64,000 nt of DNA from Burkholderiales bacterium (GTDB taxonomy: Bacteria > Pseudomonadota > Gammaproteobacteria > Burkholderiales > Burkholderiaceae_C). Below are positions 12,481 through 20,280 of the stretch, one piece after another; the stretch's first letter is position 1, and each line of letters begins with the position of its first letter. The notes beneath the pieces are model-generated. The model searched no databases. It saw nothing but the letters and a program-made list of their open reading frames with translations, and was not told the DNA's origin. A program made the translations under genes and the position numbers. The stretch covers positions 102,944-166,943 of the forward strand of contig JAFKGD010000012.1 of the NCBI GenBank assembly GCA_017307855.1. Direction: 5' to 3'.

Positions 12481-12778
12481 GGGATCGCGACCTCTGCTTC
12501 CCTCGGGGAAGCTTTAGCTGGTGAAAAAACCTTCCGCGACACGGCTTGACCGGATGGCGGATGCACTAGGTAACAGTGGCTGGAAGGGCTCTGATTACGC
12601 GCAGGATTGTGCCACCGAACCCCGCCTGCGTGCCCAAAGCGCGGGCATCCAGACGTGAAACTCCTCACCAGGACGGCTTTATGACGTTCTTTTTTGGCAA
12701 CATTTACATACAAAGCCGGTTTGTGTGAGTTAAATTGCCGAAGTTGACAGTTATTAACAATTGAACGGTATCACGGCC

Positions 12779-14116
12779 ATGGCAACACCCCGCTTTCGCG
12801 CCTCCACCCTCGCCGCCCTGCTGCTCGCCGCGGCGGCATTGCCCCAGGCTGCCATGGCTCAGGCCGACGCCACAGTCCGCGACGCGCTGACGATGACCAA
12901 TACCGGCCAGAGCGCGCAAGCCTTCGCGCTGCTGGATCCGCTCGAGGCCACGCGCGCGGGCGACCCGGAGTTCGACCTCGTGTTCGGCATCGCCGCCCTG
13001 GAGTCGGGCCAGTACAGCCGCTCCATCATGGCGCTGGAGCGCGTGCTGGTGGTGCAGCCCGACAATGCCCGGGCCCGCGCCGAACTGGGCCGTGCACTGT
13101 TCGCGGTCGGTGACACCCGTGCGGCCCGCGCGCTGCTGCAGGAGACCCGCGACCAGGGCGTGCCGATCGCGGTGGCAACGACCATCGACGAGTTCCTCAC
13201 GGCCATCGACCGCGTCGAAGCCCAGGGCAAGTCGTCCTGGAAAGCCTACGCCGAACTCGGTATCGGTCATGATTCCAACGCCAACAGCGGCCCCGCCGGC
13301 AGCAACGTGGCAGTCCCGGCCTTTGGCGGCCTGGTGTTCACGCTCAATCCGGGCGGCGTCAAGCAGAAAGCGGAATTCTTCACGGCCGGCGCGGGCGCTT
13401 CGGGCCGTTACGTCATCGATCCGCGCTGGTCGCTGATCGGCAACGCCAGTGTGCTGTCCCGCTCGTACAGCGGCTCCGCCGACCAGTTCGACAACCTCCA
13501 GCTCGACATCAGCGGCGGTGCCAGCTACCGCCATGAGCGCAACGAATACAGCCTGGTGGGTCAGGTGGGCAATTACTGGGTCGATGGTGACCGTGCCCGC
13601 GAGCAGATCGGCGTGGTGGGCGAATGGATCTATCGCTTCGACTCGTTCCGCCAGGTCAGCACGTACCTGCAGTACTCGCAACTGTCGTATCCGGGGCAAT
13701 CGATCCGCGACGCGGACCGCACGGTGATTGGTTCGTCGTACTCGCACATCTTCCGCAACGGCAGCCTCGTCTACGCGGGCGGCTACTTCGGCGAGGAATC
13801 CGAGAAGGCTGCGGGTGTGCCGCAATTCGGGCACAAGCTGTGGGGGCTGCGTGTGGGTGGACAGCAACCCATCCGCGACAACCTGGCCGCCTTCGCGACG
13901 CTGGGCTATGAAGACCGCCGCTACGGCGGCACTGATCCGCTGTTCCTGGTTCGTCGCAAGGACGAGCAGGTCAACTTCAACATCGGGCTGAACTGGGTGC
14001 CTGCGCCGCTGTGGCGTGTCACGCCGCAAGTCGCGCTCACGCGCACCAGCTCGAACATCGCCATCTCGGACTACGACCGGAACGTGTTCTCGGTCGTCGT
14101 GCGCCGGGACTTCTGA
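12779..14116 (+). CDS. Putative type 11 (Slam/DUF560-like) outer-membrane translocator
   Basis: The 445-residue protein has a Sec signal peptide (cleavage near AAMAQ, residue 24-25) and then TPR-like helices (about residues 30-145, for example RSIMALERVLVVQPDNARAR). An outer-membrane beta-barrel follows (about 150-445, AYAELGIGHDSNANSG onward) and ends in a terminal Phe (VVVRRDF). The GHDSNAN strand after a TPR domain and the barrel length fit the DUF560/Slam family, which moves surface lipoproteins or hemophores across the outer membrane. A TTG 18 bases upstream is in frame but lacks the signal-peptide context. The gene is 39 bases ahead of its likely cargo. Family assignment is from architecture alone. 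Confidence 0.7.
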   Translation: MATPRFRASTLAALLLAAAALPQAAMAQADATVRDALTMTNTGQSAQAFALLDPLEATRAGDPEFDLVFGIAALESGQYSRSIMALERVLVVQPDNARARAELGRALFAVGDTRAARALLQETRDQGVPIAVATTIDEFLTAIDRVEAQGKSSWKAYAELGIGHDSNANSGPAGSNVAVPAFGGLVFTLNPGGVKQKAEFFTAGAGASGRYVIDPRWSLIGNASVLSRSYSGSADQFDNLQLDISGGASYRHERNEYSLVGQVGNYWVDGDRAREQIGVVGEWIYRFDSFRQVSTYLQYSQLSYPGQSIRDADRTVIGSSYSHIFRNGSLVYAGGYFGEESEKAAGVPQFGHKLWGLRVGGQQPIRDNLAAFATLGYEDRRYGGTDPLFLVRRKDEQVNFNIGLNWVPAPLWRVTPQVALTRTSSNIAISDYDRNVFSVVVRRDF

Positions 14117-14155
14117 TCAAGACATACAAGACTACTCAGGCCGAGGACACCCATC

Positions 14156-17020
14156 ATGAAGCGCAACACCCGACTTCAGCACACCGCCCTGGTTCTGGCG
14201 CTCGCTGCCGCTTACCCCATCGTCAGCCATGGCGCCGCCGGCACTGCGCAGTTCGCCGCGGGCGATGTGACCTACAAGCGCGGCAATGCGGCGCCTGCGG
14301 CCCTGACCAAAGGCACCACGCTCGAGAGCGGCGATGCCATCACCACCGGTGCCCGCGGAATCGCCCAGGTGAAGTTCTCCGACGGCGGCTACGTCGCGAT
14401 CCAGCCCAACTCGCAGTTCGACATCACGCGCTACGCCGACAGCGGCAATGCCCAGCAGGACAGCTTCCTGGTCAACCTGGCCCGCGGCGGGATGCGCGCC
14501 ATCACCGGTCTCATCGGCAAGCGCAACACGGCCAACTACAAGGTCACGACCAACACGGCGACCGTGGGTATCCGCGGTTCGTCGTTCACGCTGGCCTACG
14601 GTCCCAACGGTGAAGTCATCGTGACGACGGAGCAGGACGGTATCGAGGTCTGCACCACGGCCGGCTGCACCGGGCTGACCGCCGGGGAATCGGCCATCGT
14701 GACGAGTCCCAACAGCGAACCCAGCCGTACCAACGCCACCACCACGATGCCGCTGGTGCCCTACCGCCAGGATCCGCAGGTGGCGGGCAATCAGGCGAAT
14801 CCGGATGGGACGGCGGCCATCATCGCGGCTCGGCTGACCGGCTCGTACGACATGGCATTTGCCTGGAGTGGCAACTACGGCGAGGGTGGCATCACGAGTG
14901 GCCTGGAGCGCTCGGGCCAGCTGCATTTCGGCGCCAATGGCGCGCCCAGCAAGTACGTCGAGACCTATGGCGAAGGCTCCTACTCCACCGACTACGGCTT
15001 CTTCGCCAACGACGATGCCGTCACGGTCTTCACCACCCGGGGCTCGCTGGCCAACAGCGACCTGATGGTGCTGGGCATGTGGAGCGGGGCAGAGGACGGA
15101 TACCGCACGACGTATGAAGGCGGCTCGTACTCTTCCGTATTCGACACTTATTCACCGCTGGCGTTCGTCGCGGGTCAGGTCACGCCTGAAGCGAACATCT
15201 CATCGCTGAACATGGTGGCGACCTACAGCCTGAGCGCAGCCACTCCGGTCATCACTGGAGCTGGCACTGCCGGCACCCTCAATTCCGCCAACCTGTCGGT
15301 GGATTTCTTCAGCGGCACCAACAGGGGCCAGCTGGACATGAACCTCACCATGCCCACCGGGCCGGGCACTTCGACGAACGTGTCGATGTACGGAACCGTG
15401 AGCGGCGAGGGTAGCTACTTCAGCGGCGAGGTCGGCACGTCGTATGGCGGGCCTTCACTGCTGGCGCTGAGTGTGTCTGGCGGTGCCAATGTCCGCGGTT
15501 TCTTCGGTGGCCAGAATGCCCAGTGGGCCGGGCTGAGCTACAACGGCGGCCTCAGCTTCTACGACGGCGAAGGCAGCTACTACTATGACTTCGGCGGTGC
15601 GGCGATCCTGGGACGTGACTCGGCGACGCCGCTGACCGGCCCCCTCGGCGTCATCGGTATCGGCAGCGACGGCGGCTACACGGACTGGATCGGCAATGAC
15701 TGGACCTTCGTGTCGAGCACGGGTGGCGCCATCAACTACATGGCGAGCTACAACGAAACAGGCCGCGCCGTCGGCCCGGCCGTGGAAGTTGGGTCGCTGA
15801 CCGCGGGAGGCCAGAAGGTCTCGCTGACACATTGGGCCGACAGCTTGTGGCAATCGGGCGAAGGCTCGTACTCCTACTCGCTGCAGGATGTCGTCTTCGT
15901 CGCCGGCGTTCCGACCAGCAACAGCACGATCAGTTCGATGAACGGCATGAGCGCCACTTACTCGCTGACAGGTGGCGTGAAGTCATCGGCCTTTGCATCG
16001 CAAGGCGGCGGCCCGCTGGGCACCCTGGATTCCGCCACGCTGAGCGTCATGTTCAACGGCAGTTCCAACACGGGCGTGCTCGACATGGCGTTCTCGCTCA
16101 CGGGCAGCTACGGCGGCGCGTCTTCGACGAGCATTTCGGTCTCGGGCGGTGGCAATTACTTCTACGGCACTGGCGCCCTGTCCGGCTCGGGCGGTGGCAC
16201 GCTGGGCGCCGACGGCGTCTTCTACGGCCCGTCGGCGGAATTCGTCGGCCTGATCTACGAAAGCTGGGGCCGCGGCAATGGGGAAAACTTCCACGGCGGA
16301 GCCATCCTCACGCAGACAGCGATGCCGGTCGTTCCCGAAGCCGGCAGCTACAGCAACCTGTCGTCGTTCATGGCGTTCACCAACTACCAGCCCGGCGTCA
16401 GCGACGCCGCCACGACCGGCACGCATGTGTTCAACAACTCGCATCTGTCGACCATTGCGGATGGCGAAGGAACGAGCATCGCGGCCAATACCCTGAACGG
16501 TGAATTCGGCCACACGGGCTCGGGTGCTGCCGGCGACTTCATCGGCTGGGGCAAATGGGAGTCTGCCGACGTCCGCTACAACGGCTCGTCGGCCTCTGGC
16601 GTCTCCAACGTGCATTACATCGTCGGCCAGGCCACGCCTGGCAGCTACTTCACCGCCCCCGAGCGCAATGGTGTCACGGCAACCTACACCGCCGTCGGCG
16701 GCACGACGCCGACGGCGAGCAACGGCGGCACAGGCTCGCTGCAGACGCAACTCTCCGAACTCACGGTGGCCTTCTCCGCGACGCCCACGGTGTCGGCCAC
16801 GGTGAACACGCTGTTTGGCAGCTCCACCTATGTCAACAACACCATCAACGACATGCCCATCACCGGCGGCTCGTTCGGTGGCGCCAACGCGGCCGGTACC
16901 ATGAACGGTTTGTTTGCGGGACCCAACGCCGAGCGTGCGGGCCTCGTCTACACCATCAACGGCGGTTCGTACGGCACGGTGACCGGGGCTGTGGGCTTCA
17001 ACCGCAACGGCGCGCAATAA
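14156..17020 (+). CDS. FecR-domain surface protein with three tandem barrel-like repeats
   Basis: The 954-residue protein has a Sec signal peptide (cleavage near SHGAA, about residue 24) without a lipobox Cys. A FecR domain follows (about residues 30-180: VTYKRGNAAPAAL, GDAITTGARGIAQVKFSDG, NTATVGIRGSSFTL). The rest is Gly/Ser/Thr/Tyr-rich beta sequence in three repeats of roughly 230-270 residues. Each repeat carries a VAGQVTP-like motif, an ATYSL strand, GTLNSANLSV and a closing barrel motif: GFFGGQNAQWAGLSY, VFYGPSAEFVGLIY and LFAGPNAERAGLVY, each followed by an FGGAAILG-type strand. The closing motif resembles the C-terminal barrel of TbpB-like Slam cargo. It probably is exported by the preceding gene. 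Its activity is unknown. Confidence 0.7.
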   Translation: MKRNTRLQHTALVLALAAAYPIVSHGAAGTAQFAAGDVTYKRGNAAPAALTKGTTLESGDAITTGARGIAQVKFSDGGYVAIQPNSQFDITRYADSGNAQQDSFLVNLARGGMRAITGLIGKRNTANYKVTTNTATVGIRGSSFTLAYGPNGEVIVTTEQDGIEVCTTAGCTGLTAGESAIVTSPNSEPSRTNATTTMPLVPYRQDPQVAGNQANPDGTAAIIAARLTGSYDMAFAWSGNYGEGGITSGLERSGQLHFGANGAPSKYVETYGEGSYSTDYGFFANDDAVTVFTTRGSLANSDLMVLGMWSGAEDGYRTTYEGGSYSSVFDTYSPLAFVAGQVTPEANISSLNMVATYSLSAATPVITGAGTAGTLNSANLSVDFFSGTNRGQLDMNLTMPTGPGTSTNVSMYGTVSGEGSYFSGEVGTSYGGPSLLALSVSGGANVRGFFGGQNAQWAGLSYNGGLSFYDGEGSYYYDFGGAAILGRDSATPLTGPLGVIGIGSDGGYTDWIGNDWTFVSSTGGAINYMASYNETGRAVGPAVEVGSLTAGGQKVSLTHWADSLWQSGEGSYSYSLQDVVFVAGVPTSNSTISSMNGMSATYSLTGGVKSSAFASQGGGPLGTLDSATLSVMFNGSSNTGVLDMAFSLTGSYGGASSTSISVSGGGNYFYGTGALSGSGGGTLGADGVFYGPSAEFVGLIYESWGRGNGENFHGGAILTQTAMPVVPEAGSYSNLSSFMAFTNYQPGVSDAATTGTHVFNNSHLSTIADGEGTSIAANTLNGEFGHTGSGAAGDFIGWGKWESADVRYNGSSASGVSNVHYIVGQATPGSYFTAPERNGVTATYTAVGGTTPTASNGGTGSLQTQLSELTVAFSATPTVSATVNTLFGSSTYVNNTINDMPITGGSFGGANAAGTMNGLFAGPNAERAGLVYTINGGSYGTVTGAVGFNRNGAQ

Positions 17021-17023
17021 CCG

Positions 17024-18010
17024 TCAGGCGTCTTGCTGATAGAACTGCAATTGCCGTTCTATCGCTTCGTCGCCGTGGATGCGAATCGCGCTGGCGCGCC
17101 CCGCCCGCGCGATTTTTTCATGCAGGCCGGCGTCCTTGCGCAACGCCTCGATGGCATCGAATGCCTCCTCGGTGCTTGCGATGAGGAAACCGTCGCCGCC
17201 GTGCGCAATCTGCTCCGCATAGCCCCCCCTGCGGCTGGCGACCACGGGCACGCCTGCTGCCATGGCTTCGAGCACGACACGGCCGTAGGGCTCTTCAAAG
17301 CTGCCGGTGCGATAGAAAAACACGTCGAGTTCTTGCAGGAACCGGTGCGCGGGCATGGCCCCCGCCACGAGTATCTCCACACCCGGCACGCCCTCCAGCC
17401 AGGGCGACAGGCATGTGGCGCCCATCAACCGGATCCGCACTCCCTGCGCCGCCAGCATGCGGTAGAGCCCGATGTCCTCGGGATGGTGCTTGTCCAGCAC
17501 ATCACGGCTCAGTCGGCCCACGGTCAGCGGCTTGCGCCGGGCCGGGGGGGCGACGGCGAGGAACGGCGCGAGGCGGATCAGGCTCGGCTCCACCGTACCC
17601 GCCATGCCCACAGCCCGCTGCATCACGCGCGAGACGAAGCGGACTTGCGGGACAAGGCCTGTCATGTGCTGCAGATACACCACGAGCCGCGCGAGGCGCT
17701 CATGCTGCGGCAAGTTGTACCGTACGGCGAGCCGGTCGAGATGCGCCTGCCGCAGCCAGTCACCCGTGCCCACATGCACTCCGCCCAGCAGCAACATGCC
17801 GCCCCGGGGAAACTCACCGGCTTCGGGCCTCACCTGACGCACGCCCATCGCTGCGTAGTCAGGGTGAGGTGGGGTATCCGACCACAGCACGCATTCACGC
17901 CGACCGGCCAGGGCTTGCGCCAGATCCGGCAATTCGCGCTCGGCGCCGGTGTGGATGTCGGCGAAGTGGCCAAGGAGGTGAAGCGGTGTCGCGGGCGCGT
18001 GGGCAGACAT
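17024..18010 (-). CDS. Glycosyltransferase, GT-B fold (GT4-like)
   Basis: This 328-residue protein has the C-terminal half of a GT4-type retaining glycosyltransferase: FFYRTGSFEEPYGRVVLEAMAAGVPVVASRRGG, including the EPYGRVVLEAMAAG donor-site motif, then HGGDGFLIAS. The mid region KPLTVGRLSRD is the usual sugar-donor domain entry. The chosen ATG gives MSAHAPATPLHLLG; an earlier start adds nine residues. It ends three bases after the FecR protein stop on the opposite strand and is divergent from the TPR-GT gene. Its place in this locus suggests it decorates the surface protein or a polysaccharide. Donor and acceptor are unknown. Confidence 0.75.
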   Translation of the reverse strand: MSAHAPATPLHLLGHFADIHTGAERELPDLAQALAGRRECVLWSDTPPHPDYAAMGVRQVRPEAGEFPRGGMLLLGGVHVGTGDWLRQAHLDRLAVRYNLPQHERLARLVVYLQHMTGLVPQVRFVSRVMQRAVGMAGTVEPSLIRLAPFLAVAPPARRKPLTVGRLSRDVLDKHHPEDIGLYRMLAAQGVRIRLMGATCLSPWLEGVPGVEILVAGAMPAHRFLQELDVFFYRTGSFEEPYGRVVLEAMAAGVPVVASRRGGYAEQIAHGGDGFLIASTEEAFDAIEALRKDAGLHEKIARAGRASAIRIHGDEAIERQLQFYQQDA

Positions 18011-18051
18011 GCGGGCGATTATGCTGGCGGCCTGCACTGCTCCGCCTCCTC

Positions 18052-20280
18052 ATGACCCCGTCCTTCGACACCTTGCGCGCTTTCCCTCATGACGCCCTGA
18101 CTCGCGTGCGCAATCAGCCCCTGCGCGCGCGCAATGCCTTCGGACGTCACATGGAACGCGGTGCGGCCTTTCATGCGGCGGGTCTGGCCGACTACGCGCT
18201 GGCCGAATTCGAACACGCCCTGTCGCTGCAGCCCGGCGACGCGCAGGCGGCCAGTGCGCGGGCCACCGTACTGCTGGAGCAGCGGCGTCCGCAGGCGGCA
18301 CGTCAGACCTTGCTCGCCTGCACGCAAACACTGTCTGCCAACGCCGACGGGTGCTGCAATCTGGCGCTGGCGCATGCCATCGGCGGCGACGCCGAGGCTG
18401 CCCGGCAGATGTACGAACGGGCGCTGAATCTCGCTCCTGCGCACGCGGGCGCGCTGGAAGGGCTGGTTCGCGAGGCCGGCGCACGGCGCGACTGGGATGC
18501 GGCATTGATCCATGCCGAAGCTGCCGCGCGGGCGCATCCGTCGCGGCCGGCGACCTGGCTCCTGTGGATCGACACGCTGCTGCATGCGCGACGTCCCCAC
18601 GACGCGCTTGCCGTGATCGATGGACAGTCTGCACAAGCAGCAGGGGGCCAGCCGCAGGCCCTGGTGACCTCCGCTGCACATGGCGTGCGCCGCGCCTTGG
18701 CCCAGGCGTTGATCGGGCAATGGGACCAGGCCCGGGCGACGCTGGTCGGCCTGCCGGCAGGCCATGGGCCCGGGGCACTGGCGCTGCTGCAGGCCGGACT
18801 GTTGCCATCGCTTGGCATCGGCCACGGCGCAGCACGAGGTGTGGATGTGGTGTTGTGGTGCGCTCAATACGCCGCCGCTGGCGTGGCCGAGGGGCACTGG
18901 CATTGCGCCTCGACGCTGTCGCAGATGCTCCAGGCCGCCTCCCGTGCCGACGCCCCCGCGACATCGCCGGCCTTGTGGCAGATCGCACGGCCGCAGCTCG
19001 ACAGCCTGCCATTGCCCGACAGCACACTGGCTGCTTGCCTCGCACGGGCCGATGCAGCAGACCTGGCGGCCCGCCCCGCCAACGATTCACTCGCCCCCCC
19101 GCTGCCGCGCAGCGACGGCCGGCTGCGCATCGCGCTGCTGATACCGCCGCTCGATGCGATGCGCGTCCACTGGCTGGCTCACCAACTCGCATCCCATCAC
19201 CCGGGTCGATTCGACCTGCGCGCCTATGCTGCACTGAATCCTGATTCCGCAGATCCGGCCGAGGCAGCCGCGCTCGCGGCACTGTCCTCGCGGGTCGATC
19301 AGCTGCTCCCCATCGGACACCTGAGCGACGCCGAGCTGGTGGCACGCATCCGGCTGGACCAGCCGGACCTGCTCATCGACCTGTCCGCCAGCCATCCGGC
19401 CGGACGACCTGCGGTCTCAGCCCGTCGCCTGGCCTCGGTCCATGCCCGGTTGCATGCCGTTCCGGCGCATGCGGCCGACGCACCATACGACTATCTGATC
19501 ACCGATCTGTTCACGCATGCGGGCACACCTCCTGCGGCCGGCGGCGCGTGGGCACGGGTGCCGGGCTCGACATGGCTGGTCCCCGCTCCGGCAAGCACGG
19601 CCGGATGGCAGGACGAGCCTTCGGACGCCTCATCTGTCCGTCTGACGGCCTGGGTCGCGGCAACCTGCATCGACGAACAGAGCTTCGCCCTCTGGATGCG
19701 CCTGCTGCGACAACTCGATGGCGCCGTGCTCGAGCTCCTTGCATTGCCTCCCGATACTCAGGCACGCCTGCGGCGCGAAGCCGCACGGCACGATGTGGCG
19801 CCAGCACGGCTGTGGTTCGGCGATCCATCGGCCGCGCCCGAAGGTCGCCGCATCCACCTCGATCCTCTGCTGCGCAGCGACCCGATAGCGGTATCGAATG
19901 CGTTGGTCCGGGGTGAGGTCGTGCTGGCCTGTGCAGGCCAGCGCACGGCATCGCGGCCCGGCGCGGCCATCCTGCATGGCGCAGGCATGCCGCAGTGGGT
20001 CGCCTCCGACCCTGAAGCTCTGTTCACACTCGCTTCGCACCTGGCCACCGATGCCGTGGCGCTGCGTGGCATGCGGGCCGAACTGTCGCAAGCCCGCATC
20101 GAAGGCCTTGCCGATCCGGCGTCGCCCGGGTGGTGGAACAGCCGCGCCCGCGCCGCCGAACTCGGCTGGGCTTTCACGCACATGGTCGAACGCGCGCGAG
20201 CCGGTCTGCCGCCCGCGTCTTTCGAAGTGCCGTGCGGCGCGGTACCCCCGCCGCTCAGCCTGCGGCCAGCTGCTCCCTGA
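18052..20280 (+). CDS. TPR protein with divergent SPINDLY/OGT-like (GT41) region
   Basis: The 742-residue protein begins with TPR repeats (about residues 30-330: RGAAFHAAGLADYALAEFEH, ALSLQPGDAQAA, MYERALNLAPAHAGALEGL). From about residue 350 the sequence LRIALLIPPLDAMRVHWLAHQ and later IRLDQPDLLIDLSASH, ARLHAVPAHAADAPYDYLIT follow the outline of SPINDLY/OGT-type transferases (RIGYLSPDF..., DILVDL..., DY.I.D). The match is weak and the usual His/Lys catalytic context is not obvious, so it may be a degenerate or specialised GT41 relative. The frame extends upstream over the antisense glycosyltransferase, but the ATG at 18052 is the sensible start. The last 26 bases overlap prpE tail-to-tail. 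Confidence 0.6.
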   Translation: MTPSFDTLRAFPHDALTRVRNQPLRARNAFGRHMERGAAFHAAGLADYALAEFEHALSLQPGDAQAASARATVLLEQRRPQAARQTLLACTQTLSANADGCCNLALAHAIGGDAEAARQMYERALNLAPAHAGALEGLVREAGARRDWDAALIHAEAAARAHPSRPATWLLWIDTLLHARRPHDALAVIDGQSAQAAGGQPQALVTSAAHGVRRALAQALIGQWDQARATLVGLPAGHGPGALALLQAGLLPSLGIGHGAARGVDVVLWCAQYAAAGVAEGHWHCASTLSQMLQAASRADAPATSPALWQIARPQLDSLPLPDSTLAACLARADAADLAARPANDSLAPPLPRSDGRLRIALLIPPLDAMRVHWLAHQLASHHPGRFDLRAYAALNPDSADPAEAAALAALSSRVDQLLPIGHLSDAELVARIRLDQPDLLIDLSASHPAGRPAVSARRLASVHARLHAVPAHAADAPYDYLITDLFTHAGTPPAAGGAWARVPGSTWLVPAPASTAGWQDEPSDASSVRLTAWVAATCIDEQSFALWMRLLRQLDGAVLELLALPPDTQARLRREAARHDVAPARLWFGDPSAAPEGRRIHLDPLLRSDPIAVSNALVRGEVVLACAGQRTASRPGAAILHGAGMPQWVASDPEALFTLASHLATDAVALRGMRAELSQARIEGLADPASPGWWNSRARAAELGWAFTHMVERARAGLPPASFEVPCGAVPPPLSLRPAAP

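Follow-up and report, generated by a model that had tools for sequence, protein, structure and literature searches.

FecR domains as the suggested fixed partner of a large uncharacterized branch of the Slam/DUF560 channels of type 11 secretion

The DNA considered here is a 64,000-nucleotide stretch (the window) of a Burkholderiales genome (assembly GCA_017307855.1, contig JAFKGD010000012.1), whose forward strand carries a two-gene unit: open reading frame (ORF) A (12779..14116), which codes for an outer-membrane protein of the DUF560/SlipAM family, i.e., that of the Slam translocators of the type 11 secretion system (T11SS), is followed after 39 bases (14117-14155) by ORF B (14156..17020), which codes for a 954-residue partner with a FecR domain and three predicted handle-barrel units. 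Our comparisons suggest that a large uncharacterized branch of these channels has the FecR domain as its fixed partner: channels of this DUF560 clade are almost invariably paired with FecR, and the barrels are optional and variable. The initial annotation had viewed FecR as an extra domain placed up front of a barrel cargo, a relationship that the wider comparison inverts.

According to the available text of a 2021 T11SS paper, nine DUF560 clusters besides cluster 1 had no characterized protein and a cargo as yet unknown (PMC8406197), and we found no characterized member of the present large clade. The word FecR occurs neither in that paper nor in a 2025 cargo study of clusters 1 and 3, which described soluble cargo and two to three handle-barrel pairs (PMC12282271); nor does the PMC literature, searched short of supplementary tables and subscription papers, anywhere bring together FecR and DUF560, FecR and type XI secretion, or 'FecR domain' and T11SS. 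One widespread environmental DUF560 clade gains a testable predicted partner, and the constancy of FecR questions the rule that a C-terminal barrel alone defines T11SS cargo.

Conservation of the DUF560-FecR pair and variability of the barrels

The two-gene unit is conserved and widespread. Among 299 genomes sampled from the same family, 27 have PF04575 matches, at a total of 29 places, 24 of which have a FecR gene directly downstream. A channel profile of 17 rows matched 146 of the 349 genomes in an order-level sample, from which a census took in the 113 places that scored highest, at ~131 bits and above (90 genomes in 29 families), and set aside lower-scoring matches as well as G020 and the genome of the window itself. 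FecR adjoins the channel at 108 of these 113 places: at four, a gene coding for FecR plus barrel lies directly upstream, and at 104 FecR is downstream, i.e., with a start between 400 bases ahead of the channel ORF's end and 1200 bases past it (95 by script, and nine with a FecR open frame beginning inside the channel gene, seven of these confirmed by FecR coordinates among the matches listed). The exceptions include a FecR gene convergent beside the channel (L170), one lying ~2 kb downstream (L220), and a contig end (L186). In a class-level sample of 274 genomes, 48 of the 53 channel places outside the window's own genome are followed within 1 kb by a same-strand FecR, and in G726 FecR is upstream of the channel; this census used 77 FecR rows of a longer list, and among the rows left out just one (G671, >1 Mb away) shares its contig with a channel place that is unpaired. 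Counted from the FecR side, a channel lies upstream at 77 of 80 named loci, the three misses being two contig ends and one masked stretch. These loci overlap partly with the family sample, and most carry Polaromonas, Acidovorax, Rhodoferax, Ramlibacter, other Burkholderiales, Rhodocyclaceae, or betaproteobacterial names. The pairing that the initial annotation proposed to seek in other genomes thus recurs across the family, the order, and the class.

Some loci show further variations in their FecR genes. At L261 and L262, where the cargo gene lies directly upstream of the channel, NGIGGTG-type repeats precede FecR at the N-terminus, and the partner at L264 has similar GGMGGTG/GGVGGTG repeats. 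L130, L131, and L134 have a second short FecR gene (253-280 amino acids) directly upstream of the channel, along with a FecR-plus-barrel gene downstream. One FecR contig gave an exceptionally long apparent open frame, which was discarded as an artefact of masked sequence.

The number of handle-barrel units varies widely. Among 244 FecR ORFs, a set that was not deduplicated between samplings and that includes stand-alone and truncated FecR ORFs, 83 have no unit, 127 have one, 23 two, four three, five four, and two five. Nine of the 83 unit-less ORFs run to the end of the available sequence; many have a proline-rich tail, and some contain hardly more than FecR (146-155 amino acids; 233 in L063). 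When 15 genomes were searched for units (E<=0.001), none was found in six whose partners are complete and barrel-less (G023, G140, G186, G206, G216, and G224), and units were recovered in the positive controls G000, G001, G122, and G131 as well as in three f38 genomes. G419 likewise gave no unit match and was left out of the barrel-less group, its partner gene being truncated at the edge of a contig; G197, with a proline-rich-tail partner, had one weak unit match elsewhere in the genome (E 1e-5). The f38 genomes (G420, G549, and G606; loci L197, L199, and L201) present a split version of the system, namely a channel, a FecR protein of 146-155 amino acids, and a separate unit protein of 964-1584 amino acids with three to four units and no FecR, whose gene starts within a few bases of the FecR gene or overlaps it. 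FecR and barrels therefore occur both fused and as adjacent separate genes.

Individual partners illustrate the range of forms. In the FecR partner at L064:7207-9099, a proline-rich (PTPA)n tail of ~400 residues replaces the barrels. The partners at L176 and L208 reach 1696 and 2022 amino acids, with five stretches in each matching our first unit profile. The channel partner at L188:2025-3089 has a unit-like C-terminus (50 bits), no FecR, and no Pfam match at E<=0.001, and is possibly a classical-type cargo of the same channel clade.

Domain architecture of the window pair

ORF A is a full-length DUF560/SlipAM family protein: PF04575 (SlipAM) matches it with 66 bits (cut-off 22; E 5.1e-18) over profile positions 1-288 of 288. 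The match spans residues 160-451, counted on the ORF as started at an in-frame TTG at 12761, with the ATG start at 12779; the same model gave matches in none of 14 control genomes. The SlipAM part is preceded by TPR repeats (TPR_19, E 6e-8, above its cut-off); the dedicated Slam TPR model, TPR_Slam (PF24575), matches weakly and below its cut-off of 35.2 (17 bits, E 0.008). The N-terminus is signal-peptide-like, and the predicted beta-barrel ends in a C-terminal Phe (...VVVRRDF). The 16 homologs aligned with ORF A are 38-64% identical to it. The initial annotation had placed a TPR plus terminal-Phe barrel gene 39 bases ahead of that of a FecR-domain protein, which the coordinates and Pfam confirm, and its suggestion that a hidden Markov model search would assign the former to the DUF560 translocators is borne out by the PF04575 match.

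The partner protein, ORF B, begins with a putative Sec-type signal peptide (14156..14233; MKRNTRLQHTALVLALAAAYPIVSHG, read by eye), in which, as the initial annotation had stated, no lipobox is seen by eye. On pattern alone, a lipobox-like N-terminus occurs in 14 of the 233 FecR ORFs scoring at least 60 bits. The FecR domain, the constant module of these partners, follows at residues ~31-192 (14246..14731). It is matched by PF04773 at residues 60-151 with 45 bits (cut-off 24), and no other Pfam family is detected in ORF B at E<=1. A 12-row FecR alignment has 34 invariant columns, two cysteines among them. In the model of the full-length protein, the 10-residue blocks of residues 31-190 have a predicted local distance difference test (pLDDT) score of 76-93, and Foldseek relates this part to the putative anti-sigma structures 4m0n/4m0h (E 4e-5 to 9e-5, root-mean-square deviation [rmsd] 3.3-4.0; for 4m0n, E 4e-5 and rmsd 3.5); a search of PDB sequences with the single ORF B sequence gave no match.

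FecR anti-sigma regulators combine a cytoplasmic anti-sigma segment with a transmembrane helix and have a sigma-factor gene alongside. ORF B shares with the PF04773 regulators the FecR domain and the model match to 4m0n, but, unlike them, has an N-terminus that reads as a signal peptide; together with PF04773 being its only family at E<=1 and the lack of a sigma factor in the four flanking ORFs scanned, this led us to reject such a regulator as the identity of ORF B. The LapA-type retention module (NF033682) was also rejected, its weak local match (19.3 bits) lying far under the cut-off of 50.

Behind FecR, ORF B has three units, viz., unit 1 (residues 204-488; 14765..15619), unit 2 (residues 490-721; 15623..16318), and unit 3 (residues 727-952; 16334..17011), of 285, 232, and 226 amino acids. 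The closing motifs by which three tandem repeats had initially been recognized are present (FFGGQNAQWAGLSY, FYGPSAEFVGLIY, and FAGPNAERAGLVY). ORF B compared with itself by BLAST gave no match at E<=1 except over its full length because the repeats are too diverged, and a profile was therefore needed to show them. A first profile, made from six single-barrel homologs and unit 3 of the window, detected units 1 and 2 at independent E-values of 1e-11 and 1e-9; the iterated profile, which absorbs the units it finds, scores the three units at 107, 57, and 131 bits.

Among PDB sequences, the resulting 52-unit profile matches LbpB best, in its C-terminal portion (7n88, E 2.6e-4), the next match being at E 0.93. 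Scanned singly against Pfam, units weakly match TbpB_B_D (4 of 52; best E 0.0019) and HphA_C (2 of 52; best E 0.0026), with other families matched by one or two units each. Modeled alone by AlphaFold2 with the 52-unit alignment, unit 3 (pLDDT 91, predicted template modeling score 0.89) shows seven handle strands followed by eight further strands, which probably close into a barrel, as judged from the Foldseek matches: all 50 matches listed at E<=0.001 (E 7e-6 to 8.5e-4) are TbpB, LbpB, hemophilin/HphA, fHbp, or NHBA. The model thus points to a C-terminal eight-strand handle-barrel of the TbpB/hemophilin type in ORF B. The full-length model, whose best Foldseek matches are TbpB, has a mean pLDDT of 66 and is, as expected from alignment depth, uneven: FecR is confident, unit 1 is moderate (10-residue blocks at pLDDT 38-93), unit 2 is unusable because the alignment is too shallow, and the C-terminal part of unit 3 is good from ~residue 780. 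Accordingly, the proposal that the repeats are TbpB-like barrels holds for unit 3 through its model and its matches to Slam cargo, extends to unit 1 through the profile and a model of moderate quality, and depends on the profile for unit 2, which is a candidate third barrel. The initial annotation had also named the findings that would count against it, and what we observe is a translocator-family match for ORF A in place of another barrel family, repeats that look like barrels (unit 2 by profile only), and a pair that co-occurs in other genomes.

These features place the pair close to several known systems. Like the T11SS/Slam translocators (PF04575; NilB, HrpB, Slam1), ORF A has a full-length PF04575 match, TPRs before the barrel, and a gene adjoining that of a TbpB-like barrel protein, but it is weak to the Slam TPR model and its constant neighbor is FecR. 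ORF B resembles hemophilin/HphA and HrpC in its handle and C-terminal eight-strand barrel, apparent signal peptide, apparent lack of a lipobox, Foldseek matches, and weak HphA_C matches, but its class has one to several units behind FecR. The unit finds its best matches, in sequence as in structure, in TbpB/LbpB, which likewise have tandem handle-barrel pairs; they differ in that ORF B has FecR, no apparent lipobox, and three units as against two lobes. The T11SS cargo of Sphingomonas and Psychrobacter, as described in the accessible text of the 2025 study, also has two to three handle-barrel pairs in lipidated and soluble forms, but comes from other taxa and has N-terminal Pro-Thr or Pro-Thr-Asp repeats in the place of FecR, and is more often lipidated (18/30 and 55/59, respectively; PMC12282271). 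Multiple handle-barrel pairs and non-lipidated cargo having thus already been described there, these traits are not new.

Tandem cargos and co-variation of FecR with the channel

Two FecR-plus-one-unit genes lie behind one channel in seven genomes, represented by eight rows because L038 and L100 come from the same genome. The FecR domains of these tandem pairs are 81-100% identical and their units 31-41% identical, in a comparison restricted to those 99 FecR ORFs that have one, and only one, unit of at least 40 bits. Among 1500 random other-locus pairs serving as the background, the median FecR identity is 42% for unit identities of 30-35%, 45% for those of 35-40%, and 59% for those of 40-50%. 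In the five tandem pairs that were profiled, base identity, third codon positions included, is confined to FecR, with both the signal peptide and the barrel diverged: the FecR of L126 has 100% base identity (in a metagenome-assembled genome, where an assembly artefact is possible), that of L132, from a complete genome, is 84-100% identical at third positions, and that of L100 64-80%; in L041 and L072 the similarity peaks at the center of the FecR domain. FecR thus evolves in concert between sister cargos, for which gene conversion restricted to the FecR part would be the simplest explanation, and selection may be keeping a common FecR tag for the shared channel. Such tandem cargos, alike in FecR and diverged in their barrels, constitute a natural experiment on channel recognition.

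A correlation of pairwise identities, in which one cargo was taken per distinct channel (83 of 92), links the channel more closely to FecR (r 0.885) than to the last unit (r 0.666), with partial correlations of 0.80 and 0.29, respectively (83 loci, 2500 comparisons).

Proposed mechanism, its alternatives, and the genomic setting

On balance, and with modest confidence, we propose that the pair is a type 11 secretion unit of a non-lipidated variety, in which FecR serves as a docking or anchoring module. The partner protein would cross the inner membrane by Sec, following which the DUF560 protein, with its TPRs and barrel, would convey the TbpB/hemophilin-like units at the C-terminus of the partner to the cell surface. 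FecR, at the N-terminus, may dock on the channel from the periplasmic side, either delivering the cargo or holding it at the surface, and would in the latter role replace the lipid anchor of classical Slam cargo. A bolder version, which we offer tentatively and with some doubt, makes FecR a portable periplasmic address-and-anchor domain, by which one channel could serve several cargos sharing a tag as their barrels diversify, with the tag also operating in trans or with other tails. If true, the FecR tag would be kept near-identical by gene conversion while the surface barrels diversify freely; it would act in trans as a protein of 146-155 amino acids or carry proline-rich tails, and surface display would be possible without a lipid anchor.

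The same genes might be read as classical T11SS cargo, with the C-terminal barrel as the address and FecR as an N-terminal effector shown on the surface. The unit fold and the architecture do fit a scheme of N-terminal effector, pedestal, and C-terminal barrel, and the partner at L188 is a barrel without FecR. This reading accounts for the protein in the window; it fails to account for the barrel-less partners, which are complete in six genomes without a unit match, for the split operon, in which FecR has its own gene, and for the tag-like evolution by which FecR is homogenized between sister cargos with diverged barrels. A near-constant FecR with an optional barrel is, moreover, the reverse of the classical scheme, and we consider this reading unlikely. 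FecR domains are also known in periplasmic signaling proteins, which raises a non-secretory possibility, namely that a DUF560-like barrel and FecR form a structural or sensing complex of the periplasm and outer membrane, with the units binding ligands in the periplasm. The model match to a putative anti-sigma factor and the partners consisting of FecR alone or with a proline-rich tail, which have no cargo-like part, would suit such a complex; however, ORF A matches a translocator family over its full length, each of the 50 PDB matches listed for unit 3 is a surface or secreted protein of the Slam type, and the four flanking ORFs scanned in the window include no sigma-factor family, making it improbable. 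A merely coincidental neighborhood of unrelated genes can be dismissed given the pairing counts of the order, class, and FecR-side censuses.

Several observations nevertheless weigh against the secretion reading that we favor. The secretion of ORF B by ORF A is itself a prediction from sequence, and the barrel has been proposed as the secretion signal of known T11SS cargo in the available text of the 2021 paper (PMC8406197); if so, barrel-less partners would not be exported, such that either FecR suffices for export or their channels act otherwise. FecR is missing at five places in the family sample (L032, L033, L034, L055, and L059), the first three of which have its best PF04575 scores, at two in the order census (L188, with its barrel partner, and L174, where none was found), and at G829:C127, G741, the second place in G671, and G675 in the class sample, where contig ends were unchecked. 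The single-unit Pfam matches are weak, with unit 3 of the window having none at all, and an unrelated plant LysM model, a match that we take for chance, attains a better E-value (8e-4) in one unit than do TbpB_B_D or HphA_C. Likewise, the unit 3 model has low TM-scores when these are taken by query length (0.31-0.47, rmsd 7-14.5; NHBA reaches 0.58 by target length), and the superposition of the whole unit is therefore loose. As regards the tandem cargos, FecR identity between other-locus pairs reaches maxima of 89-93% at equally diverged units, and conversion proceeds more easily in conserved sequence, so that homogenization of FecR need not mean selection; furthermore, the tandem genomes belong to two lineages, five being apparently Polaromonas and two of the Rhodocyclaceae type (L126 and L132), and the duplications therefore need not be independent and possibly had two origins. 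The partial correlations share one uncontrolled species phylogeny, and common ancestry inflates them; a co-variation with FecR specific to the TPR part of the channel was not found (partial r 0.35 for TPR, 0.52 for the barrel).

Among the flanking ORFs scanned in the window, a minus-strand 2-oxoglutarate dehydrogenase E1 gene lies on the 5' side of the pair, and on the 3' side are minus-strand genes for a group 1 glycosyltransferase and, past a mechanically called plus-strand ORF, an acyl-CoA synthetase. That ORF (17413-20280), which adjoins the group 1 glycosyltransferase, contains stretches resembling TPRs and matches glycosyltransferase family 41 (O-GlcNAc-transferase type) at its C-terminus. 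The four flanking ORFs scanned contain no TonB receptor or heme family, a promoter scan found none, terminator-like sites occur at chance frequency, and the defense-system models gave no match. The channel profile matches the window's own genome (G000) only in the window, and two more FecR-type matches occur in this genome outside the pair, on contigs C4 and C12.

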